Assembly (NCBI GenBank): GCA_020912385.1
Contig: CP087210.1
Span: 682,001-746,000 of the forward strand
Direction of reading: 5' to 3'
DNA length: 64,000 nt
Source of the DNA: Neofusicoccum parvum
Lineage: Eukaryota; Ascomycota; Dothideomycetes; Botryosphaeriales; Botryosphaeriaceae
The notes beneath the pieces are model-generated. The model was not told where the DNA came from. It did not search any database and was given only the letters and a program-made list of their open reading frames with translations. Within the stretch, counting starts at the first letter, position 1. Each line of letters starts with the position of its first letter. Of this stretch, positions 15,128-45,656 are shown in pieces. Position numbers and translations under genes: made by a program.

Positions 15128-17770
15128 ATGCCGCGGGACCACGACTCCCCCCGGCGCGACCGCGACCGCGACCGCAACTACTCCCGCGACCGGCACCATC
15201 GCTCCGACCGCGAAGAGCGCGACCGCGACCCAGAGCGTCGCCAGCGCCGCCGCACACGCGAGCCCACCAGCGACCGCGAGTACGACACCGACCGGTCGCA
15301 GCAGCAGCGGCGCCGCCGCCGCGGCCACCGCGCCACCGACTCGACCGGCGAGCCCATCGTCCTGCGGCACCCGGAGCGCTCGTACGACTCGCCGTACCAC
15401 AGCTCGTCGCCGTCGCCGACCAAGGCGCGGGCGCACCGCCAGAGCTACAATGGCGGCGGTGGTCGGTCGCGCGGCACCGACACGCCGGCGAGCAGGGACT
15501 CGGGCGCGAGCAATCGGGCGCTGCTGCAGGCGGATGCGCTGGCGCAGCTGGACCAGATGAACTCGAAGAGCGGGTGGAAGGCGAACCGGTACGATGAGGC
15601 GTACCTGAAGCAGGTGCAGGAGCAGGAGCGTCAGTTGGAGAAGGAGAGGCAGCGGGAGGAGAAGAGGGAGAGGAGGAGGGCGAGGGAAGAGGCGGCGCGT
15701 GAGAAGGAGAAGAGGAAGGGGTATGAGGAGGAGATGGGGTTCAGGAGGAGTAGACAGGTTGACGCCGAGTTAGAGGACGAGGAGGATGAGCCGCTGGCCG
15801 CAGCATATCCGAGCGGCGGGGATGGGATCAGAGTAAGAGGCTATGATGAGTTCCCGGAACCATACACTGATGAGCCGTACACGGATGATCCTGGGGAGCC
15901 GAGGAGACGGAGAAGGGAGTATACCGAAGAAGAGAGGGAGGAGAGGAGAAGGAGAAGGAAAGAGAGAGCATTTGCAGCAACTGCTGTTGCGGGCAAGAGT
16001 AAGAAGAGCCGGGTCGTCAGTGGTCCTCTGCTTGAGGAAGGCGGCAAAGAAGAGTACGAGTACCGCATGGCTAACCGCGGTGGCGGCGGGAGCGGTGATG
16101 ATTATTATGACGAGGAGCTGAAGAAGAAGAAGAAGCGGAAAAAGATCTTCATCGGCGTCGGAATCGTCATTCTCATTCTAGCCATCGTCATCCCCGTCGC
16201 TGTCGTTGTCTCAGGGAAGAACAGCGGTAGCGGCGATTCTTCGTCCAGCACATCATCATCATCAGACTCGGGAAAGCCAGACAACAACAATCTGAATGGC
16301 ATATCCGAGGACGATATACCAGAATACGCACGAGGCGGTCTTTTGGATCCGTTCACGTGGTATGACACCGAGGATTTCAACGTCACCTTCACCAACGATA
16401 CCGTCGGAGGCCTCTCAATCATGGGTTTGAACATGACATGGGATGACAGCGTCCAGGCCAATGAGCATGTCCCTGCCTTGGACAAAGAGTTCGGATACGG
16501 CGAGTTACCTATCCGCGGCGTCAATGTGGGTGGCTGGCTTAACCTAGAACCCTTTATTACACCTTCCTTCTTCGAATCCTACAGCACGCGAGACGGTGTC
16601 ATCGACGAATGGACGCTCACCACAAGCATGGGTGCAAAGTCCAAGTCGAATCTGGAAACACACTATTCGTCCTTCATCAACAAGCAGACGTTCATCGACA
16701 TCCGCAACGCAGGCTTCGACCACGTCCGCATTCCATTCAACTATTGGGCTGTGACCACATACGACGGTGACCCATATGTTGCCAAGATCTCCTGGAGGTA
16801 TCTCCTCCGTGGTATCGAATATGCACGGCAACAAGGCCTCCGCGTGAACCTGGACTTGCACGGCCTGCCTGGCAGTCAGAACGGCTGGAACCACAGTGGA
16901 AGACAGGGTGCTATTGGATGGTTGAACGGCACAGATGGCACTCTCAATGCGCAGCGCAGCACGGACATCCATGATCAGCTTTCAACGTTCTTCGCCCAAC
17001 CGCGCTACAAGAACGTCGTCACCATGTATGGTCTCGCCAACGAACCGCGCATGGTTGAGCTCAGTACAAGCGACGTGCTCGCATGGTATGATGAGGTAAT
17101 TCCAATGATCCGCAAGAACAACATCACTGCCGTTTTAGTCTTCGGCGACGGCTTCCTCGGTCTAGACAACTGGCAAGGCAAGCTGCAGAACTACGACAAT
17201 CTCCTCCTCGACGTGCACCAGTACGTCATCTTTAACGTCGATCTGATCAAGTTCTCGCATGCGGAGAAGGTCAACTTCGCCTGCAAAGGCTGGACACAGC
17301 AATCTCTCCGCTCGATGAACAAGAACACCGGCTTTGGCCCAACCATGTGCGGCGAATGGTCGCAGGCCGACACGGACTGCACGACATACATCAACAACGT
17401 CGGCTGGGGCACCCGCTGGGAGGGCACGTACAACACGGGCAACAGCAGCACCTCCGTCCTCACGCCCACCTGCCCCACGGACAACAACCCCGTCTGCTCT
17501 TGCGACAATGCCTTGGCCGACCCCTCCGACTACAGCGACACATACAAGCAATTCCTACTCGACTTCGCCCTTGCCCAGATCTACAGCTTCGAACAGGGGT
17601 GGGGTTGGTTCTACTGGACGTGGAAGACGGAGAAAGCAGTCCAATGGAGCTGGGAGAGCGGCATGGCGGCAGGCATTCTGCCACAGAAGGCGTGGGATCA
17701 CAGTGCGTTCTCGTGCAACACAAGCGATATTCCAGACTATTCGGGATTGGGATTGGCAGAGAACTACTGA
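15128..17770 (+). CDS. exgD: Membrane-anchored glucan 1,3-beta-glucosidase D (GH5 exo-beta-1,3-glucanase)
   Basis: Single exon of 880 residues from ATG 15128, chosen because MPRDHDSPRR gives the Arg/Asp-rich cytoplasmic tail typical of ExgD. The protein has a long charged N-terminal tail, a single hydrophobic segment at about residues 338-362 (IGVGIVILILAIVIPVAVVV) that makes it a type II membrane protein, a Ser-rich linker, and a GH5 (subfamily 9) domain. The catalytic acid/base is Glu639 in GLANEP and the nucleophile is Glu743 in CGEWSQ. VRIPFNYW and GVNVGGWLNLEPF are also family signatures. It trims beta-1,3-glucan at the cell wall. The total length is slightly above the usual for the family, because of the charged tail. 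An earlier in-frame start at 14906 is less likely. Confidence 0.93.
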   Translation: MPRDHDSPRRDRDRDRNYSRDRHHRSDREERDRDPERRQRRRTREPTSDREYDTDRSQQQRRRRRGHRATDSTGEPIVLRHPERSYDSPYHSSSPSPTKARAHRQSYNGGGGRSRGTDTPASRDSGASNRALLQADALAQLDQMNSKSGWKANRYDEAYLKQVQEQERQLEKERQREEKRERRRAREEAAREKEKRKGYEEEMGFRRSRQVDAELEDEEDEPLAAAYPSGGDGIRVRGYDEFPEPYTDEPYTDDPGEPRRRRREYTEEEREERRRRRKERAFAATAVAGKSKKSRVVSGPLLEEGGKEEYEYRMANRGGGGSGDDYYDEELKKKKKRKKIFIGVGIVILILAIVIPVAVVVSGKNSGSGDSSSSTSSSSDSGKPDNNNLNGISEDDIPEYARGGLLDPFTWYDTEDFNVTFTNDTVGGLSIMGLNMTWDDSVQANEHVPALDKEFGYGELPIRGVNVGGWLNLEPFITPSFFESYSTRDGVIDEWTLTTSMGAKSKSNLETHYSSFINKQTFIDIRNAGFDHVRIPFNYWAVTTYDGDPYVAKISWRYLLRGIEYARQQGLRVNLDLHGLPGSQNGWNHSGRQGAIGWLNGTDGTLNAQRSTDIHDQLSTFFAQPRYKNVVTMYGLANEPRMVELSTSDVLAWYDEVIPMIRKNNITAVLVFGDGFLGLDNWQGKLQNYDNLLLDVHQYVIFNVDLIKFSHAEKVNFACKGWTQQSLRSMNKNTGFGPTMCGEWSQADTDCTTYINNVGWGTRWEGTYNTGNSSTSVLTPTCPTDNNPVCSCDNALADPSDYSDTYKQFLLDFALAQIYSFEQGWGWFYWTWKTEKAVQWSWESGMAAGILPQKAWDHSAFSCNTSDIPDYSGLGLAENY

Positions 17771-32749: not shown

Positions 32750-35700
32750 GACATGTATCAGCAGTGACGTGGATTGGGAAGAAAACGGAAAAATCAAGAA
32801 AGGGACGAGGAAGGGAAAAGGGTCCGGTGAAGACCAGCAGATGATGATGATTGCAGATAGCACGCCCCGCCGGCGGTGGGATGCATGTATGATGTAGCAT
32901 CAGGAGGTTTTTCCTCTTCTCAACACCTACGCAATTGGCTTTAGAAAGGAACAAGAAAACTCCGGCGGGCGCTACGGTGGCAATTGAAGTAAGTAATGTA
33001 GTGGGGCACATATTTACGATAGAAAGATAGGAAAGACGAAATTTTCCTTGGATGTGTCTCTCATTGTTTCGCTACAGCCTCATCCCTTGCTCCCCTCGTG
33101 CTTGCTTGTGCGCTGCGCACGCGGCTGTCGTTCTCCGCTTCTAGAATGCAACTCAAATCTACTCTATTGCCTTTGCACATGCCTACTGTCTACTGCACCT
33201 GTCCGCTTGCTGCGAGATCTGCGTCACCACGTGCCCCTTTCTCTTTTTTTTTTTTTCCTTTCTTATTTCCCCCCTTCTCCATGCGCAAGTGGAATTTGTC
33301 ATTGGACGAGAACGAACGCAGGCAAGTATTCGAAATACCGTACATGACATGAGAAACACCACGTCATGTATGTGTATGTACATGCACATGTAGTGGCAAG
33401 AATTCTCGGTCTGCCGCGTCTTGCCGCCAGACACCTGCTGCTGCTGCTGCTGCTGCCTTCTGCATCTGCATCATGCCTTGCCTTGCCTTGCAGGTTTGAA
33501 CGTGGCCGAGACAATGAATTGGGATACTGCATTTGTTCATCTCGCGTACCCCGCTTCTTGACTTTTTTTTTTCATTGTTTCTTCTTTGTCTTGTGTATGT
33601 GGGATGCTGTTGTGTCGTATGCTGATGTTGTATTTGACGGGGTCTTGGAGGGCTTGGGATCATTTGCTTTGGCACAAGGGAGCGAGGGGAGTGAAGCGGG
33701 GGGTTGTGCCACGATCGAGGGATGTTCCTTGCTTGGATCTGGTGTAACAGGTGGCGAGTTGCGGACAGCTGGAGGCAGTGACGTTGTGGGGATTTTGGTC
33801 ATGTTTGGTACGTATGTTGAAGTGGTTTGGAATTTTAACGCCGAGGACGGTATTCTGGGCGGAATTGAAGTGAGTGGCATGTTCTAGTTTGAAATGCGCG
33901 AAGTGTTGTAACAAGGTCACATATGGGCTGTTGAGGTATTCATCCTGACAGATTTGACTGTTTTCACGGTATATTGGGCCTTGGACGAATAAAATAAGTA
34001 CCCGGAAAGGCATGCGCATGTTGTAAAACTTTCTGAATCGAGCTCGCAATGTGCGTTTGTGAAAAGGCAGAGGTTCACTGCTCCTTGGATGTGTTGAATT
34101 TTTTCTCCAGCTGTCTTCCAAAAAAAAAAAAGAATTCCAGGGCTCGTTTTTTGCTGACCACGTTCCCAGGTGTCTCACATGAATTTGGAACGCTAAGAAA
34201 TGATAGAAAATACCTCCTTACAAGCCCTTCCACCCTCTACCAACGTTCACTTACCCTATCCGGGCTGTTGGGACCACTATGACTAAGGGATCTCATGCCT
34301 TCCGATCTGGGAAAGTGATTGACTGCTGTTTGGGGTAATTTTGAGCGCAACCCAGAAGGTCTCCGGCGCCATCAGCGTGAAGCTGACGGCTGACTGTCAT
34401 CACTGAGACTTGACAGGAGATCCCTCCATTCTCCAGGCACATCTGCCACACTCGAGTACAAGAAAATTCTGAAGTGTCATCCGTGGCTTCCTCGGGCCAG
34501 GCCAGATCCGCCGTTGCTCCAACGCAGACGTCATTAGGCCACCCCACGATATGGTCGAGGAACCTCACTCCACGAGGAGTATTGGTTCCTCTTGACTTCC
34601 ATCATCTACCCACGTCACACCTTCGAGTCAATGACTAGAATTGCGTATCATTGGCAGGCAACAAAAGCCTTCCCGCGATGCCCTCATTCCCACGGTGCCA
34701 CAGCCCAGTTCCTCTGGACGAGCCTGCCCTGCCCTGGCCAGCTCTGCCCTTCCCCGGAACAAGAGAGAGCCGATGAAGATCCGATCCGCTGACCCTAGAC
34801 ATCGTGACATGACAAGCGCGGCGCCAATGGAGAGATCCCCCAGATACGAGAGGCCAAAAGCAGGCTGGCATCTGAGCGCGCCGGGGAAGTCGGCGCGATG
34901 GCGTCAATTCGGCCTCCCACTTTGCTCCATTCCCCCCAAACCCCGGATAGTGCCATGGAGCCGAGCGCTGATTGACGCTCGAAAGTGGGAAAGGGCGACG
35001 CTCGTCTCGTCTCTCGAGTAATGTGGCTCTTGTTGCCCCCACGGCGGCTGTATAGCGAGGTGCGAAGGGCGAGTGCCCGGTGATCCGGCCAAGCTGAGAG
35101 GCGATGGCATGTTTATGCCGAAGGAGATTAAGACATTCGCGCTCCCACCCGGGCAACCAAGCCACATGCCAATCCGCATATCGTGACCAACTGCGCGCGC
35201 CGATCAAACAGTCTAGGCCTGCGACCTTTGGCCTTTTCGCCAGCCCTACTCATGGCCGCCCTTTCCACCACGCCCGTCTCACCACCTACGTCATCAGCCT
35301 CGCTCTCCACACTGGCCCTCGCTTGCCCCTGCAACAGCGACTGCCAGCAGCGCCAACTGCAAGTCACGCAGCAGGCAGTGCCGGCGATCCGCCCGATCCA
35401 GAGACAAGCTCAACACAGAGGGCTTAGGCACGCGCTAGCCACCACTCCAGATCCCATCTCCAACGTCGGCCGAAGCCGCCGCGACGACGACGTACGACCG
35501 CCGTAAAAGCAGGGACGGAATACAGGCGGCTCAGCCCACCACATCTCACCACGCACTTGCCCGCACCTTTGCGCTGCGTGGCATTGGCCGGCCGGGGGGA
35601 GTCATTGCAGCACGTAGCAGCTACCACCTCTCTATCTCGCACGCCTCTCCTGTCCGGCATGGCGAGAGCCGCGTGAGCCTCCCCAAGTTACGTAGCTACG

Positions 35701-37535
35701 TCGCATTTGCCCTCTCGCCCAACAGCGCCGGAGCCAGAGTCGGACCCTTCCCCCCTTCCCATGCGCACATCCCCCCTCCCTCCCCCCTCCCTCCAACCCT
35801 CACACCACGGGACGGGCACGCGAGGAGAGACACGACGAGCGGGCACGGATGGCCGGCCACGTTGTTTTTTTTTTTCCCGCTGAGCTTGCCTCTCGCTTCA
35901 GTCGGGCCTTCTGCCTCTTCTTTCGTTGCCGCCGCCGCGCCCGACTTTCGTCGCCCCCCCCGTGCATTGCCCCCTCTCTTCCCTTCCGACTCTCCGTCGC
36001 GGCGGCGGCTTCCGATGGCCGTCTGGGCAGCGTAGTTGCGCGGTTGCGGACTCGGGTGTCGCCGGGCGTCGCCGGGCATCAACGGGCACGCAGAAACACC
36101 GCGTTGCGCGTTCTGCGTCTGTGCCCCTCCGCCCCAACGACAATGATTACTCTTCCTCCTCAATGATTTGCGGGAAGGGGGGAGAGTGGGAGGGGGACAT
36201 GGACCCGACTTCCGATTCCGACGACGAGGGCGGGCAGGGCAAGAGAGAGGGGGAGGGAAAGAAACCCGACTCAGGGCGAGACCGGGCGGGTGCGGAGCGA
36301 GCTGAGGTGCGAGAGAGAAAGCAGATTGCGGCTCCGAGCATTTGGGAACGACATAATAATGGAGCCCAACTGCAGTGGTGTCGCTCGTTCCGCATTCCCC
36401 GGCGCGGCAGGCAAGCGAGCGAGGCACGCTGCTCTCGCCGGCACGGCAGGTTACCCGCATGTGCGAACCATCACACCCCGCCGGGCCCCAATCAATAAAA
36501 GAAGAGCGAAAAAAACCGTGTGGACGACAGTCCGAGTTTTCGCGTTCCCCGCTGCCCCACCGGCGCGAGGCGCCTTTGAAGCAGGACTCCGGCGCTCCTA
36601 GGACGCAGGATCTTCGAGAAGAGGGAAGGCCGGCGGGAAGCGAAGTTGCAGAGAGGCCATTTGCTGTCGCTCGGGCCGATCCGAACCAACGGCGTGGCAC
36701 CAGATTCGAAGGTCCAACCGCCGCAATATATCGCACTCACATGCAAGGCCCTCGCCGCCAGACGTGCCCTCGCCGAGCGGAAGCTCAGAAGCTTCCGCCG
36801 TCCGCCTGCTCGGCGCACCACGTGGGCGTTTCCTGATGGATCGGCTTGACCGACTTGTCCATGCCATGCCGTGAGGACGACCGACCGACACCACCGCAAG
36901 GGCAGCGGAACAGCAGCCCTATCGCGGGCCCGACACGTAGGTAACGGCGTCGGCGAGCAACTCCACACCCACAGCCTGCAGTCTAGAACACACGCACACC
37001 CCGTCGACGCTGCTGCGATCAGCGCCGCAAAACCCAAACCCCCGATTCACGCGTCACACGTCGCAAGGCAGCAGCATCCTTTGCCTGCAATGCCCGCCAC
37101 AGATCAAACACAAACCGCGTGTCATCGCGGCCATTGCGTGTATGGAAGGGGGAAGAAGCAGCAGCAGCACAGAAAGTCGCCGACCGACGTTGCCTGGTCC
37201 AATGCCTGCGCGCGGCACCCCGACTCCCAGCCACACGGCATCCTTCCCGCCGCCAGCAAAGAAAAAACAAAACACGAACTGCCCACGACACGTCTCCGAA
37301 CCCGTCTCAATCTGTTGCACACCTCCTCCCCTTGACACCCTACTCACCTCCCCAAACCAGTATCCCGCCAAACGGCCAGCGCGTGCGCCGTAGGAGTTCC
37401 CTCCGCCTCCTCCTCGGCATCCCTACCGCAAATCGACGATCATGCTCCAGAAGCAGCCGACGCGACTTATTTTTTCCCTTTCTCCTTTCGTCGGTGCGCC
37501 TTCGGTGCGTGCGTTGATGCGTCCGTCTTGCGTCT
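32750..37535. other. 4.8-kb region between convergent gene ends, no gene recognised
   Basis: This region lies between the CCT5 stop and the CHY zinc-finger stop. The first part (32.8-34.6 kb) is mixed in composition, with T, A and CTG runs. From about 34.6 kb it becomes GC-rich. Frames such as 34635-35207 (-), 35696-36736 (-) and 36492-37037 (-) are Arg/Pro/Ser-biased and domain-free. Pyrimidine-rich blocks on the + strand around 35.7-36.1 kb resemble fungal leaders, so a small or heavily split gene cannot be excluded. Confidence 0.4.
33244..33256. repeat. T13 homopolymer
   Basis: A run of 13 T in a pyrimidine-rich tract downstream of CCT5. Confidence 0.85.
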
Positions 37536-40500
37536 CTACGACGACGGCGGTTTGGTGCCCGGTGCGCGCTTGTACTTCCGCGGGTCTTGCGGTGTGAGAA
37601 AGGAAACGAGTCAGCCCTTTTTTCTCTCTTGTTTTCCCGTGCCCCTCCCACCCCCCCCATGTCAAGATTGCATGTGTGGCACGGATTTCTCCACGGGCCA
37701 TGTGGCCGCCATCCGCGCGGGTGTGAGGGGTGTGTGTTACGAAAGCAAAACGTAAAACGAGGACGGAAGAAAAAGCGACGGGTGGGCGTGATGTCAGCAG
37801 CGGAAAAACCGAACGGTGCTCTGACCGGGGTTGAGCACCCGGATACAATTCAGAGAGAAGAAATATAGAGAGAGAAAAGGAAAAGTAGAGAGAAAGGGAC
37901 AAGGCGCGTGCATGATGTGAAGGGGGGGGAAATTTGAGGAAAGCGCTCGAGCAGCATGGCGAATATTGCAATACCCTCGTCGCCTTTCCCCCATCCCCAT
38001 TGCCATATCATTGCCGCAAGGCCCCCGTCCACACAGACACACAGACAGCAACAACAACACATGCACGCACGCACGCACGAACGCACTGCCCCTCGCCAAA
38101 AAAAAAAAAAAACACTCGCCCGCATCCGCCCGTGGGGTTCCCCGCTGGTATGTGCGGCCGTCATCTTAATCCAGGCGAGGCTTGACGTGCTCGACGACGT
38201 GCTCCGACGACGTGCTGAGCCAGAGTGTGGCCGCCGCGGCACGACTCAAACCTCAACCAACCCCTCACGCCTCCTCTCCGCTCTGACACCCGCTCCCCTG
38301 CCTGCCAGACCGCCCGCCGGCGATGGCGGTGGAGGGGAAGGGAGGGGGCCAACGTTTGCCGGCCGGCCGAATGACCGACCGGCCAACGCCGGGCGGAGGG
38401 AAGAAGGGGGGGACGGGGGAGGGTGTGAGGGAAAGCCAGCGCAGCAAAGGCCGCGGCGGGCGGGCGAGTGTCGGCTTGCAAATGTGGGATGCGAGCGTGG
38501 TGTGTGTGTGTGTGTGTGTGTGTGCGTGTGTTGTTTGCTTATGGTGGTGTGCGTACGTGTGCGGCGTAGCGGGCAGGGAAGGTCGAAGGGAAAAAAATAA
38601 AAGGCACGCGGGACAACCACACAACAGACGCGGAATTAGGAGCAGCGAGTCGAAAAAGGAACAGGACAAGCAAAGAAGATGAAACCGCGCGCGACGATTG
38701 GTCGAGCAGGGAAAAGGTTGCCGGTGTGATGCGCAGAAAGCAAAACCCGGCGCAACGGTAGGCACGGCTCGTTGGCTGGAAAAAACAATAGGCTGAATGA
38801 CGGGCGACGCGGGCGGGCGAAGGGGAGGGCGGGATGCGGGAGAGCCAACCATCACACCACCGCGGGAGAAAGCCAAAAGTAAGGAACAACAACAACACAA
38901 CAGCATGGACATACCTTTTCTCGACATCCGCGTGCGGTCACGCGTACCTGCATCGGCGCCAGCGTCAGCGATTCGCATCCTTCAAACAAAGCGCGCGTGC
39001 GGGTGTGTGTGTGCTGCGGCAGACGGGGTAATGGAGTATCCGGCCGGCGGTTTCTGCGAGAAATCTCCGCGGGCGTCACGCGCCAGACTTGAAACAGCAG
39101 CAGAGAATCGCCGAGCACCGCTGCGGAGCGGAAAACGGAAGCTGGTGGCGCGCGGGCGGAGAGAGGCGCGAAGGCAACGACAGAGCCGGCCGGGCGCCAC
39201 CGCAGCCCGCATGACTTTGGACGCATTCCAATTGCTGCGTGTCTGCCTCGCCGCGCTGCCGCGCTGGCGCAGGGGGCATCCCCCAGCGTTTAGATGACCA
39301 CGGCGCGCGAGGCTTGCAAGGCGAGCAGTCCCGTGGCTGGCCAGCCAGCCAGCCCGATGCCAAGGCCCCGAGGCAGCGAAAGCGCGCGCTGCATCGGCGG
39401 CGTCGTGACGAGATTCGCAGGGCTGGCGCGCCAAGCAGGGACCCGGATTCCGGCGACGCAGTCTGGGGAGCTGGGCGGTCCGGAAAAGGGGAGCGGCAGC
39501 GTGTCGAAGGGGGACGCCGACAAGGAGCGCGACCCCAGATTTGCGAGGCCAAAACCTGGGGCACAGAGTGGGGCGGGGGGGGGGTGCTGCGCACGTGGAG
39601 GGCCTGCACGCCGGGGCGCAGGCCTGCCCAAAACCTTCTTCTGCTACGCTTCGTGTTTGCCGAACGAGACATCCCTCTCGGCTCGTCCGTCGGCAACCGC
39701 TGGCGTGTACCTCGGCCGCCGGCGCGGGGTGGTCGACGAGCAGACGTGAGGAGGCGGCGCAAAAAAAAGGCGCAGCCAGCGACGAGGAACCTTGGTTGCA
39801 ATGCTGTCGAGGGCGCGCGCCCGGGAAACGTCCATGCGCGCGCGCGCCAGCCATCAGCCAGCCAGCAGCCACCGCCGGAGGGACATCGCGAGACAGACGA
39901 GACGAGTCGCGGCCAGCGCCCCTGTGCTGCAAACGGTCTGTTCCCCGCGACCGCTCCCCCAGTCCTCCTGCCAGCCGGACAGGGCCTGGCCCGCGCGCGT
40001 CGCCCTGCCACGCTGAAGACGACGTCCAGCGCAGCCTCGCGCAAGAGGTGCGACGCTGGCTCCCCAGTCCATCGCGCGGTCCCCGGCGCCCGGGTCGCCG
40101 GCTGCTCGACACAAGGGACGAAGCCCGTGTGCTTTGGGTTTGGCTTCTGACAACGGCGTGCCGGAAGCGGGTGTAGACACCCAATTCCCCTAGTGGCCGG
40201 CTCCTTCTTCGTCCTGGGCGAATCGCCGTCCGCTAATTGCAACGGCCAGCTTACGGCGTTCCGCCGCCCAAGGGCGAGGGCACCGAAACTTCGCTTTGTG
40301 GAGGGTGCAGGCGGGAATTGGAGATGAGGGGCGTTTAAGCCTTTCGCGATCAGATGCTGGTCATCCACGTACCTTTTCCGCCTTCCCAGAAGCCTGTGCC
40401 CTTCTTGCCGACGAGCGTCGCGTGGCAGATTCCGCACTCTTCCGGCCGGTAGTTCTGCTCGCGGGAGCCTGTGATGGGGAGATGGAGCCGTTAGCAACGT

Positions 40501-43500
40501 CCGCCTCTCCGCGCAGCCGAAATGACTGGGCGTCGCCCGGGGGATGGTGGCTCACAAAATCCACTATGCACACGCGCAAAAGACGTCGTCAGCAAGTCGC
40601 GCTCCATGACTGCATGATGATTGAGGCAGAACGAAATGATCGACGGCGCGCGGTAGGGCTGCAGCTGGCTCGGGGGAAGAATGCCGCGAGCCCCCAGGGC
40701 ACCGAGTCAGACCGCCCACTCCCCCCTTGGCCACGCACAGCCGAAACAGGCAGCGCGTGCGGGGGAAGCTTGACCGGGGATAGATGTGGGTGCGACGTCA
40801 CTGCGGAGCATGGATCTGGGGAGCCTCGAGCCAGATCGAGCGCCGGTGGGCGCAACACACCAAGCTACTTACCAGATCATTCGGTTCGCGTGTTCGTTCG
40901 GGTGATCAGCCTCGTCGTCGTGGCATCTGCGATCGCACGTCAGTCGCCGTCCATCAATGATGCGCCCGCGATTGCGCCCGCAATGCCTGGCGATCTCGCG
41001 ATCTCACGACCTCGCGACCGGGCGGTGACGATACCTGTCACATGGGTACACTTTGTTGCAGCACGAAAACCTGGTGTTTACCAACAAGGCGCGGAGTCAG
41101 CGAATGTCCGGCTGACGGGACGAAACTCGGCAAACGTTGTGGCTTGCGGCGTACCGGAACCACCGATTGCTCCTGCTGTAGTGCTTGCAGCGCCCGCGCC
41201 GGGGCAGCTCCTGGCCGGCCACGATCCCGAGCTTCTCTTTGGCCTTCGGAAAGGGTCAGCTGTGGCCTCGACAGCAGCGTGAAGCCTGCGCCGACAAGGA
41301 CGAGGCCCGACGAACCTTCTTGCGCGGCAGCGCACGGGTCGCTTGCGCTGGTCACACCGACATCAGTTGTTATGCACCGTGACACGAGTAGGCTCGCCGG
41401 GAGCGCCTCCGCCCGTCCTAGCCCCGGGCCCGACCTGCCCACGATACGTACCTGACGACGCGCTGACAAGCAGGAATTTAACCTCTGCAATTCGAAATGC
41501 TAAACGGAGGGACAAACACCGGTTAGCGTCCGTCGCAGGGCGTGCAGCGCAGCCGTGCCCAATCCGCTGCGCGCATGTCTCAGGAGAGCACCTACTCATC
41601 TTCTTGTGGCACTCCCTGCAGATCGCCATCGACGAATCTCCCCGAACTGAGACAACGCCGGGGTCGGGGTGCTGCGTGGAGCATCCAGAGCACGTCGGCA
41701 GAAAATTGCTGGCAGGAACAGCGTCAGCGATCAAGACTCTTCCGTCGGGCACGAGGCAGAGCTGGGGCGAGAGCCGCGACACCATGGGAGCTTCAAGTAT
41801 TCTCCAGATAGGTCGAGCAACTGTCTTGCAATAGTTTCGCATCCACAAGAAAACTCTTGCTGCACGGATGACGCGCCCTCGACGTTGCGCCCAATCGGGA
41901 GATCGCACCTTGGAAGCATGTCGACGGGTGTGCACCCGTCAAGATCAAGGTAGCCAGCCCGGACAGAGTTTGCATGCATCAAATCCATGCGATATCCTTT
42001 CCGTAGATTAGTCTCATGACCCCCAAATTTTCATTTTCCCCATCGCCACAGCCGTACCTATGCCCAAGGGGTTTGCGCATTTCTTGCAGGATTCATTTCG
42101 GACGCCGGTGTAGTCTGCGTTAGCGTTGTTCTTTAGGTTCTTGACATCCATTGTGTCCTTGCACCGGGTGCATTTGATTGTCAGGCAGAGGTTGACGAGC
42201 TCGAGCAATTCAATGCCATGGAGCTCAAGGTGAGGCAACGACAGCGTAATCCCCCGCTCGGGAGCGGGTGTTTGAGAGCCTTCCCCGGGGCGGTCTGAGC
42301 CACCTCCTTCCGCCTCCCCGTCACTATCTGATTCATCTGGGGAGGAGTCGTAAGAGCTTTCGTCGTTGTCATCATTATCAGATCCGCGCCCTGCCATCCA
42401 CTCCGGAGGCCTTGGAATTGTAATGATGTGACTCCTGTCGTCAGCAGAGTCAGTTCCTACCGGTGCAGATGCCTCGGCCGCAGGCGTGCTGCTTGCTTCG
42501 GCTGCCTGGTCCTGTGCGGTGAGGCCCTTCATCCGGCCCTCCAGACCTGAGTCCTGAGCGTCCGGCCTTTTCTCCGGCCGCGCAGGGGGGGCTTGGGCCA
42601 TCGAATGCATGTTCTGCGAGAAGTAGTTAACGTGGTTCAGCAAGGACATCTGCGCGAACTGTCTCGCCCTATGCTCGAAGGCCTGCTGGGCGGGCAGGGC
42701 ATCTTGCCTCTCGATGCCCATGAGCTCGACTCTGCACGGCTGCAGGGGGTAGAGCTCAGGTACCAGCAGCTTCACCGTCTTGATCGCCTGCAGAGCAATG
42801 GGCAGACTCGCCCTCCGCCTGGGGTCGACCGGCACGACAAACGCGCCATCCGCCAGCGCGGAGAAGTGAGGGAGGCGGCCGAGACGAGCCTCAAGCTGGC
42901 GTGTTTCCTGGTCACGCCGCGCTTTGGCGTGGGACTTGTCCTCGGGGCTATATGCAGGCTGAGGTGGCGGTGGCCTTTCCTTTAGCTGCGCTGGCAGTTG
43001 CGGCATGGGCGGCGCGGGTTGCACGACGAGCGGCGGCGGCGGTGGAGCGGGGACGGCGGCGGCATGCTCCCCATGCTCCGGCACGGCCCTGGCCGCCGCG
43101 TTCGGGACTATTTTGATGGAGAAGGTCGCGGCCGGCTGCGCGGTCAGTAGCTGCTCCAGCTGGCGGTCCAGGGCGTTCATCAGGCCCAGCAGCGTCGGCG
43201 CGGGGTGCGTCGCCTGCAGGGCAGCGAAGCCCTTCTCGACGTTGATCTGGAAGCCCCGGTCCATCTCGGGGTTCGACACGCGCAGCGACGGACGGCCCTC
43301 GTCCGGGAAGGTGGCAGGCACGCGGAGGCGGCACTGCAGGGCGTCAATGGCAAAAGGGAAGTCGGGGTCTGAGGGTTTCATTCCGAATGCCAGAATGGTC
43401 GCGCCGCCGTTCGCTTCGAGCGACTCGGCCGGGCTGAATCTGCGGCGGATCTGCGCCAACTGAAACTCCCGCGGATCGTCCTGCTGCGCGCGAGGGGTGG

Positions 43501-44101
43501 GACGCTCGACCGCGCGCTGAGTCGGTGTGGTGTTTGGCGGCGCGGCGGGCGCTGCAGCAGAAGGTTCGCCGCGTTCCGGATCCGCAGCAACACCAGCTTG
43601 GCGCGGCCCTGGCGGGCGTTGACGCGCAGGTCGGGCCTTTGCAGGCTGACCGGTGGAGACGCGCTGCGAGGCGTCATTGTCATGGGCAAACGGGCACTGG
43701 TCGCCGGCACGGCAGCCTAGAATGCACCGCACTCATATCAGCGGACGGCGCTCGTCAGGGATCGGGAGTCCGGTGATCAGCGGCAAAGCCGGACTCCCCC
43801 ACGGCCTCGAGCACTCGAAGAGCAGGTGTTGAACTGATAGGCACGGCAATAAGAGGGTCGCGTAAGCTTTACCGGACGGCTGCCCATGGAAGCGGCAGGG
43901 CCTCCCGCGCGGTGGCGCAGCGGGCGGAGAGGCTTGGGGTTGAGGCTGTGATGCGCTGGCAGCGGGCGACCCTGAGGCCGCTTGCATTGGGGGTGAGCAG
44001 ATGACCGGACGTGCAGCGGCTAGAGCGATGCGTTGGCAGAACAACGTACCTTCAGCGCTGCTCGTGCCGCTGCGGATGCTGGATCGCCCTTCCGCGGCCA
44101 T
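37536..44101 (-). CDS. CCCH and CHY zinc-finger protein with kilobase introns
   Basis: Exons: 44101-44050, 43980-43873, 43716-42058, 41996-41909, 41708-41596, 41499-41452, 41236-41155, 41070-41035, 40926-40873, 40563-40556, 40468-40373, 38947-38915 and 37585-37536, about 808 residues. A CCCH finger (Cys46, Cys55, Cys61, His65) is split by an intron. An RWD-like middle follows (PFAIDALQCRLRVP, RGFQINVEKGF), then an acidic Ser/Asp stretch, paired Cys motifs (IKCTRCK, SCKKC, LPTCSGC, CRECH), and a CHY zinc finger from about residue 704 (GRCKHYSRSNRWFRFSCC, YPCDRCHDDEADHPNEHANR, MICGFCSREQNYRPEECGIC). The tail FWEGGKGTRDRTRMSRK plus DPRKYKR is strongly conserved in fungal homologues, which is how the last two exons were placed. 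Role unknown; zinc and RNA binding are inferred. The first intron is in frame and optional (831 residues if retained). Confidence 0.85.
38098..38112. repeat. A15 homopolymer next to ACGC repeats
   Basis: Fifteen A bases, preceded at 38030-38090 by ACAC, CAA and CACG short repeats, all within the intron of the CHY gene. Confidence 0.85.
38500..38524. repeat. TG dinucleotide microsatellite
   Basis: About twelve TG units, continued imperfectly to 38531. The - (transcribed) strand therefore carries CA repeats in the intron, roughly 400 bases downstream of the donor. Confidence 0.9.
38948..40372 (-). other. 1,425-nt intron of the CHY zinc-finger gene
   Basis: Donor GGAAAAG/GTACGT and acceptor GATGCAG/GTACGCG, joining GFWEGGKG to TRDRTRMSRK in frame. 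Very GC-rich. Both strands carry frames of 300-470 codons (for example 39076-40497 and 38982-40184 on the -, 39239-40150 on the +) that overlap each other and show only compositional bias. Confidence 0.75.
40556..40563 (-). other. 8-nt microexon of the CHY zinc-finger gene
   Basis: The exon TGGATTTT is flanked by TGCATAG on the left and GTGAGC on the right, with GCTGAC as a branch site upstream. It supplies part of a Cys, then Gly and Phe, then the first base of the next Cys, restoring the family sequence MICGFCSREQNY. Without it the neighbouring exons do not join in frame. Confidence 0.78.
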
Positions 44102-45656
44102 GGTGATAGGCACGTTCTGTTTTTAGACGCCGATTATGAAGACAATCGCGGCCGGCGCGGCGATCTGGGGGTCTGAAGCTTGCTGCGTCGCGGGCGAGGT
44201 CAGCAGGCCCGGCGATGGCGATGGTGTTGAGCCTTCGCCAGCGCAGCCGCGACATGTTCACGCCGCCCGCTCGCGTGCCGTGACTCATAAGGCTGCGCCG
44301 GCCGGGCTGCATGGCACCGGCAGCGGCAGCATCGTGTGCGCGACTGCGCTGCGCGATCGCCCAAGGGCCGCGCGCGACCCGTGTTCCGCGTGCGCATCAT
44401 GGTGCCATCCGGCCGCCTGCCTCTGCGCGCTGCCGCTGCCACTGCCACCTGCGCGCTGCCACCTGCCACGGGCGCCGGCCGCTGGCAGAGGCTGCGTCGG
44501 CCCGAGGCCACCACCTCGCCGCCGCCGGTCGCCGCCAGCCGCCGCAAAGGGGCAGCTGCGCAGGCACGGGCTCTGCGCGCACGCGCAGGCGCAGGCGCAG
44601 GCTCAGGCGCCGGCCGGCGAGCTGCCCAGCCCAGCAGCACATGCCCGTCCCCATGCCTTGCCCTCGCTGCACTCTTATCGGCCTTACCGCCTCTTGCCTC
44701 CGCGCAGCGCGGCGTGAGGGTGTGCACGCGCTTATGCACTCGCGAGGGACCGCCGCTGGCCGGGCCAGGCGGAGGCCTTCTCTTGCATGTGCCTGTCACC
44801 GTTTTTTCGAGCCAAGCTGGGCCCGCGGGCTGGGGCGGTGGGGAACATGGCAGAAATCGGCTGGCACCGGGCTCGCGTCGCCATGCCGCGCCCCCCAAGC
44901 CCCTCACGGCCGGCCCTCATCCATCAGGAACGCACGCAAGCCAGACGCATCCATGAGGCAATCCGCGCCTGCGCCGTGAGGATTGTCCTCTAGCCCCTCC
45001 CACCGGTGAATCCACACAAGCTTCGCTCAGGGCCATCATTTGCGCGCGTCCAGTCCGTCCCTCTCACATCCCGGTGCAGGCGCCATTGGTCTGTTTCGAA
45101 ATCCACTTTTCCAGTGATTACGCTACCTAAGCTGATTACCATCTACAAGCCGTGAGGTAATTGTGCTCCTCGAGGCCTTCCAGCCCCGGTGGAGTCCGTG
45201 GCTGCCAGAATGCGACTCGGCTCCACCCCAACGCTTCCCCTACAAGTACAGAGTCCGTATAGTGTTACAGGGCATGGACGGCGGCGGTATGCTCCGTTCG
45301 CATGTGAATTCGCCCAACCCCCTCCAATGCAACCAAGGCGCGAGCCAGTGTCCATGTCTTCCGATGATCCCGTCCGCCGTCCGATGAAATAAACCGCACA
45401 AAGAAAAAGAAGATTCGTAGCATCGTTGTGCTGTTGTCAACAAGTGCAAAATGGTATCCCGAAAAGAAATTTCAAAGCAGTCAGATGTGACCCGTGCCGT
45501 TTCCGCCTTGAAGCCCGTGGAGCCCATGAACACCGTGAAAAATTAAAACGACTAGAAGCAAATCGCCAAACACCGTCACGCTATGTTCGCAAGAAATGCA
45601 ATCAATGACCCATGTGGTGTGATACCGGCCCGTGGAAAGAATTCAATCTGACTTTT
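44102..45656. other. Upstream region of the CHY gene, GC-rich
   Basis: This region lies between the regulator stop (45657) and the CHY start. It is GC-rich with CAGGCG/CAGGCT hexamer runs around 44580-44620. Frames 44136-44979 (+) and 44200-44907 (-) are overlapping, Arg/Ala/Pro-rich and domain-free. No RNA gene is seen. Confidence 0.5.

Follow-up and report, generated by a model that had tools for sequence, protein, structure and literature searches.

The - strand of the 64,000-nt stretch of Neofusicoccum parvum DNA analysed here (hereafter the window) carries, from position 44101 to 37536, a single intact CHY zinc-finger gene, whose coding sequence of 2,460 nt is divided into 14 exons and encodes a protein of 819 residues. 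Taking all the evidence into account, we are confident that this is a working, single-copy CCCH/double-RWD/CHY gene, that its introns 12 and 13 are expanded and that gene callers tend to truncate its product.

Gene model and protein family

The exon-by-exon rebuild of the 819-residue model revealed no internal stop codon, and all 14 exons are joined by GT-AG introns with consistent phases, one of them (intron 5) having a weak donor, TGA/GTAGGT. A preliminary description had proposed one - strand CHY gene that crosses a low-coding stretch by means of two introns longer than 1.3 kb, and the spliced model supports this proposal: the three places given for the tail (40373, 38915-38947 and 37536-37585), the lengths of the two introns (1,425 and 1,329 nt) and their in-phase GT..AG joins were exact. 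Two of its figures have to be amended, namely the protein length of 808 residues, which is that of the product without exon 13, and the size of about 50-100 nt given for other introns, since introns 1 to 11 of this gene measure 61-309 nt. An 8-nt microexon, predicted from the sequence at 40563-40556, also had to be added to that model to hold the frame. The parts of the gene, as read from the spliced model, are the following:

44050..44101, - strand: exon 1, with the start codon
43873..43980, - strand: exon 2, first part of the CCCH finger; joined to exon 3 it gives C-x8-C-x5-C-x3-H (by eye)
42058..43716, - strand: exon 3, which completes the CCCH finger, carries two RWD-like folds and opens a beta domain (folds as seen in relative P0002)
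41909..41996, - strand: exon 4
41596..41708, - strand: exon 5
41452..41499, - strand: exon 6
41316..41341, - strand: exon 7, 26 nt
41155..41243, - strand: exon 8, where the CHY zinc finger begins (also a Pfam match)
41035..41070, - strand: exon 9, 36 nt, FSCCNKVYPCD
40873..40926, - strand: exon 10, 54 nt, ending HANRMI, the residues at which D. corticola P0122 (partial) ends
40556..40563, - strand: exon 11, predicted 8-nt microexon TGGATTTT, the sole GT-AG solution found for CG.C
40373..40468, - strand: exon 12, SREQNYRPEEC...FWEGGKG
38948..40372, - strand: intron 12, 1,425 nt, GTACGT..CTGAC..GATGCAG, with branch site
38915..38947, - strand: exon 13, 33 nt, GTRDRTRMSRK, 37.3 bits against a profile of relatives
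37586..38914, - strand: intron 13, 1,329 nt, GTATGT..CTGAC..CCGCAAG, with branch site
37536..37585, - strand: exon 14, 50 nt, DPRKYKRAPGTKPPSS and stop, 24.6 bits against a profile of relatives

On the strength of sequence and homology we infer that the introns are removed as drawn, the 14 exons being joined, as we propose, via ordinary U2-type splicing. Of the 13 introns, 12 have a CTRAY branch site within their last 45 nt, among them the two long ones (CTGAC) and the two that flank the microexon; the exception is intron 1. At other AG sites the motif occurs in 7-11% of cases (33/312 in the gene region, 335/3,866 on the - strand and 298/4,073 on the + strand). In the 44-Mb genome exon 3 matches itself only; within the reach of that search a second copy was ruled out and the gene is single copy.

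The search for related proteins returned 1,154, the best 120 of which were listed and compared. The closest record is that of Neofusicoccum ribis, with 99% identity across 469 residues and 100% in the 48 that follow; over exon 3 the figure is 99%. The N-terminus encoded by exon 1 resembles the MAAEGRSS(I/F)RSGTS of Lasiodiplodia P0008 and Diplodia P0124. Over residues 560-819, the CHY half, the 120 listed relatives are 63-91% identical over the aligned part; Macrophomina reaches 91% over 246 columns, against 70% for residues 166-559, and this best-conserved half is the one that is fragmented into small exons in the gene. A histidine in place of tyrosine at position 553 was considered as an oddity and dismissed as ordinary, 41 of the 124 relatives matching there having H.

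The zf-CHY domain (PF05495) is matched at residues 717-778 with 39.8 bits, above the curated cut-off of 31.3 (E 6.2e-10). The CCCH spacing C-x8-C-x5-C-x3-H was recognised by eye, the window protein falling under the Pfam cut-offs; among 50 relatives, 15 match zf-CCCH (PF00642) with E no higher than 0.1, the lowest value being 8.7e-10. In the spliced model the conserved tail GTRDxxxMSRKDPRKYKR comes after the CHY half, as expected of a member of the CCCH-RWD-CHY family. No RING family was found among the six Pfam matches up to E 1, which speaks against a ligase of the RCHY1 type. A search of solved structures with the relatives' profile gave nine weak matches, with E 0.01 or worse, to CCCH proteins and others. 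The model of relative P0002 combines a CCCH and a CHY finger with two RWD-like folds and with a fold resembling C1orf123 and microsporidian ribosome-bound chains. From fold resemblance in such models, the protein may act with ribosomes or with ubiquitin-type enzymes, and the presence of RWD-like folds beside the ribosome-bound-like fold could point to a ribosome-linked role, on which none of the papers listed bears by its title.

The same genome carries a separate RING-CHY gene like RCHY1 (G000:C11:794544-794741) and a short CHY gene (G000:C3:2499850-2500056). The latter resembles yeast Hot13. The zf-CHY genome scan missed the gene at 44101-37536, whose domain is distributed among several short exons. 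Judged by title or by the start of the abstract, none of the papers listed deals with this fungal CCCH-RWD-CHY family; one on Aspergillus cristatus names a CHY zinc finger once (PMC13136136). The kind is already known, whereas for this particular member, and for the way its gene is built, no description appears to exist in the literature searched.

The predicted 8-nt exon and the CGFC motif

Exon 10 ends with NRMI followed by TG and exon 12 opens with GC followed by SREQ, at a point where the relatives carry NRMICGFCSREQ. The link between the two exons was sought with every GT or GC donor and AG acceptor between them, for introns of at least 40 nt. A single intron was rejected, since none of the 204 in-frame GT/GC-AG combinations is open. 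Exactly one two-intron GT-AG solution yields C-G-x-C, by means of the 8-nt exon at 40563-40556; read in one frame with exons 10 and 12, this exon gives CGFC (residues 758-761), introns 10 and 11 splitting both cysteine codons. The first C, the G and the second C are invariant across 50 aligned relatives, and the aligned residues of RCHY1 are also C..C. As read from the sequence, the microexon is needed to keep the frame and to complete CGFC, and it would supply the middle of this motif to the CHY finger. Its computed skipping shifts the frame and gives a protein of 792 residues in which the tail and the latter half of the CHY finger are missing. As the coding bases required for CGFC separate introns 10 and 11, the simple reading needs no stwintron.

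The pattern AG-YGGNTWYT-GT occurred in 8 of 20,000 random sequences of equal length generated with a first-order model, and a looser pattern, allowing any residue ahead of the second cysteine, in 266 of 20,000. In the whole window the tight pattern is present at two places, the microexon itself and 24696 on the + strand. Penicillium macrosclerotiorum P0152 seemingly retains intron 10 yet continues through GFCSREQ, so that it would have neither intron 11 nor the microexon. At introns 8-10 and 12, lone relatives (P0192, P0207, P0152 and P0057) seem by eye to read through or stop, in numbers too small to count.

The conserved tail and the two long introns

Profiles of the two tail pieces were built from 190 (exon 13) and 151 (exon 14) tails of relatives and searched against the window and 24 loci of the same genome, on both strands; two of these loci (L003 and L004) carry the gene's own tail and were left out as rivals. 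The exon 13 piece (TRDRTRMSRK) scored 37.3 bits, with the next best at 8.1, and the exon 14 piece (PRKYKRA) 24.6 bits, with the next best at 11.1. The tail motifs claimed in the preliminary description are thus real and exceed chance by a wide margin. An alternative tail exon nearer to 40373, the end of exon 12, was sought in the same scan and none was found. Comparison with the fungal CHY proteins showed that the whole tail is kept in 99 of the 120 listed relatives (98 by the strict pattern, and P0068 with a substitution), while 16 end or change directly after MSRK and five change earlier.

The records that depart after MSRK could mean that the main transcript has its end inside one of introns 12 and 13, by early polyadenylation or intron retention, and that the tail exons belong to a minor form or are a relic. 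Retention of intron 13 indeed leaves the frame open to 1,019 residues, and that of intron 12 to 799. We consider this very unlikely, because a relic would have lost the tail that most listed relatives keep and that scores so highly here, and because the stretches after MSRK vary between species as intron read-through would, unlike protein. Of the 16, 15 continue with G, the residue that failure to splice a phase-1 GT donor would produce, and seven with GM, as encoded by an unspliced GGTATG donor. They include records of Aureobasidium, Elasticomyces and Penicillium, so that the position of the last intron is common to Dothideomycetes and Eurotiomycetes. Judging from these sequences, the last intron, after MSRK, is at an old, conserved position.

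To compare lengths at this junction, 210 proteins were surveyed: 162 are clean, three have inserts (one of them unclear) and 45 have no match to the pattern. Read from mispredicted proteins, the intron at the intron 13 position seems to be retained in frame with 54 nt in P. macrosclerotiorum P0152 and with 51 nt in Xylographa P0193, on which reading intron 13 is about 25 times longer here. In P0082 (Elasticomyces) there is an insert as well, the last exon being seemingly in another frame, and no length was taken. On the evidence of the two in-frame proteins, intron 13 looks expanded in the Neofusicoccum gene. At the intron 12 junction, after FWEGGKG, 190 relatives are clean and none has an insert from which a length could be obtained; the position of this intron is probably conserved too.

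Introns of this size are indeed unusual in this family; the preliminary description had called them rare in filamentous ascomycetes. Mean intron lengths reported for Botryosphaeriaceae are 116 bp in Botryosphaeria dothidea (PMC7325678), 102 bp in Neoscytalidium dimidiatum (PMC10714984) and 85-87 bp in Diplodia sapinea (PMC12693491). As a background from the same genome, 139 kinase-domain matches were used; five neighbouring pairs that are not consecutive in the profile were dropped, leaving 26 gaps. The 10 that change frame measure 49-106 nt; the other 16, which keep the same frame and span 51-603 nt, may represent either introns or insertions in the protein and were not used. The sugar-transporter family, with 12 matches, gave too few exon pairs to extend this background.

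The excess length, together with two open frames (416 and 491 codons) that overlap intron 12, raises the question of whether a nested protein-coding gene, a structured RNA, a transposon or a regulatory element lies within the long introns. In both introns each of the six frames has a negative hexamer score (best -0.47 and -0.58), compared with +0.20 and +0.34 for two neighbouring long frames used as controls, in a test that is weak, exon 3 of the CHY gene itself scoring merely -0.03. A nested gene in intron 12 was rejected on the same test, the coding signal being absent from the eight long frames examined; the DNA there is GC-rich. Each long intron has a single match in the 44-Mb genome, itself, in a search that skips simple repeats, and a transposon or repeat was therefore rejected. 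With Rfam, over 34500-45600 and with E up to 1, no match falls inside either long intron; a structured RNA was rejected, the lone match, to a microRNA family, scoring far under the cut-off of that family and lying outside the gene. No tRNA gene was found in the window. We regard it as unlikely that the introns carry any such element. Intron 13 contains a CA repeat and pyrimidine tracts, and both introns would have grown through accumulation of unique sequence that is non-coding and in part of low complexity, with no recognisable gene, RNA or transposon gained. Neutral growth would then be the simplest reading. Downstream of the gene, in the about 4.5 kb from 33001 to 37500, one of 15 hexamer windows of 300 nt is slightly above zero; with almost no coding signal, the low-coding stretch continues beyond the gene end.

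Exon 13 opens with GTACGC (38947-38936) directly after the acceptor AG, so that removal of intron 12 recreates a donor, AAAAG/GTACGC. This may be a recursive splice site, whose second step would delete exon 13, that is 11 residues, in frame. We regard it as unlikely that 3'-terminal splicing acts, through skipping of the microexon or removal of exon 13, as a regulated switch of the CHY finger; if it did, the very long introns would slow or tune splice choices.

Truncated records and comparison with known systems

None of the five named Botryosphaeriaceae records from two protein searches, read as cluster representatives, has a complete tail. In N. ribis P0121 and Diplodia intermedia P0124 the protein runs on into intron 3, with different ends; D. 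corticola P0122 (partial) also lacks exon 9 and stops at NRMI just ahead of the microexon; the tail of Lasiodiplodia P0008 is wrong, and Macrophomina P0001 (partial) breaks off at MSRK. Two more, P0126 and P0127, end after exon 3, possibly come from callers that do not splice, and were left out of the count.

The two records annotated as ending in intron 3, whose retention gives 620 residues here, might be taken to mean that the exons after exon 3 are decaying and that the real product, of about 620 residues, ends in that intron. This seems to us extremely improbable: in exons 4-14 the phases, the splice sites and the CHY cysteines and histidines are intact, the CHY half is as close to Macrophomina as stated above, and the ends of P0121 and P0124 differ from each other.

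The expectation that automatic calls truncate this protein therefore holds for its outcome, all five records being affected, and less well for its cause: three of the five stop before the long introns, which cannot be the sole reason. Nor need long introns always lead to truncation, since CodingQuarry, a gene caller for fungi, accepts introns as long as 5,000 nt where transcripts support them (PMC4363200). Exons of 8, 33 and 50 nt among the last four, in combination with very long introns, would lead callers to truncate the protein, and exon size and intron length together are the likely cause of the truncated records. The model presented here corrects a gene misannotated in the records of plant-disease fungi, the record of the closest relative losing the whole CHY finger, and offers gene callers a clear test case, in which exons of 8, 33 and 50 nt are combined with introns reaching 1.4 kb.

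The predicted 8-nt exon, splitting two zinc-finger cysteine codons, joins the few tiny fungal exons reported, among them a short exon of Phanerochaete at 15226-15233, which counts to 8 nt, cited in PMC12940212. The microexon of Xlr2 in Trichoderma virens, also a filamentous ascomycete, is likewise tiny, contributes to a zinc-binding domain and was absent from the gene model, but it measures 20 nt and is glucose-dependent (PMC11121469), whereas that of Neofusicoccum has 8 nt and is predicted from the DNA. The one-nucleotide exon of Fusarium CYP621A and other small P450 exons also lie within a conserved motif and were found by homology; they belong to another gene family and are supported by transcripts (PMC12940212). 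The CHY finger aligns over about 70 residues with the RCHY1/Pirh2 structures 7ynx, 2k2c and 2dkt (best E 9.3e-4); unlike RCHY1, the Neofusicoccum protein was found to have no RING finger. The filamentous ascomycete CHY proteins (zf-CHY, PF05495) have the same tail and CHY half as here; compared with them, the Neofusicoccum gene would stand apart by its two terminal introns longer than 1.3 kb and its predicted 8-nt exon in the CHY motif.
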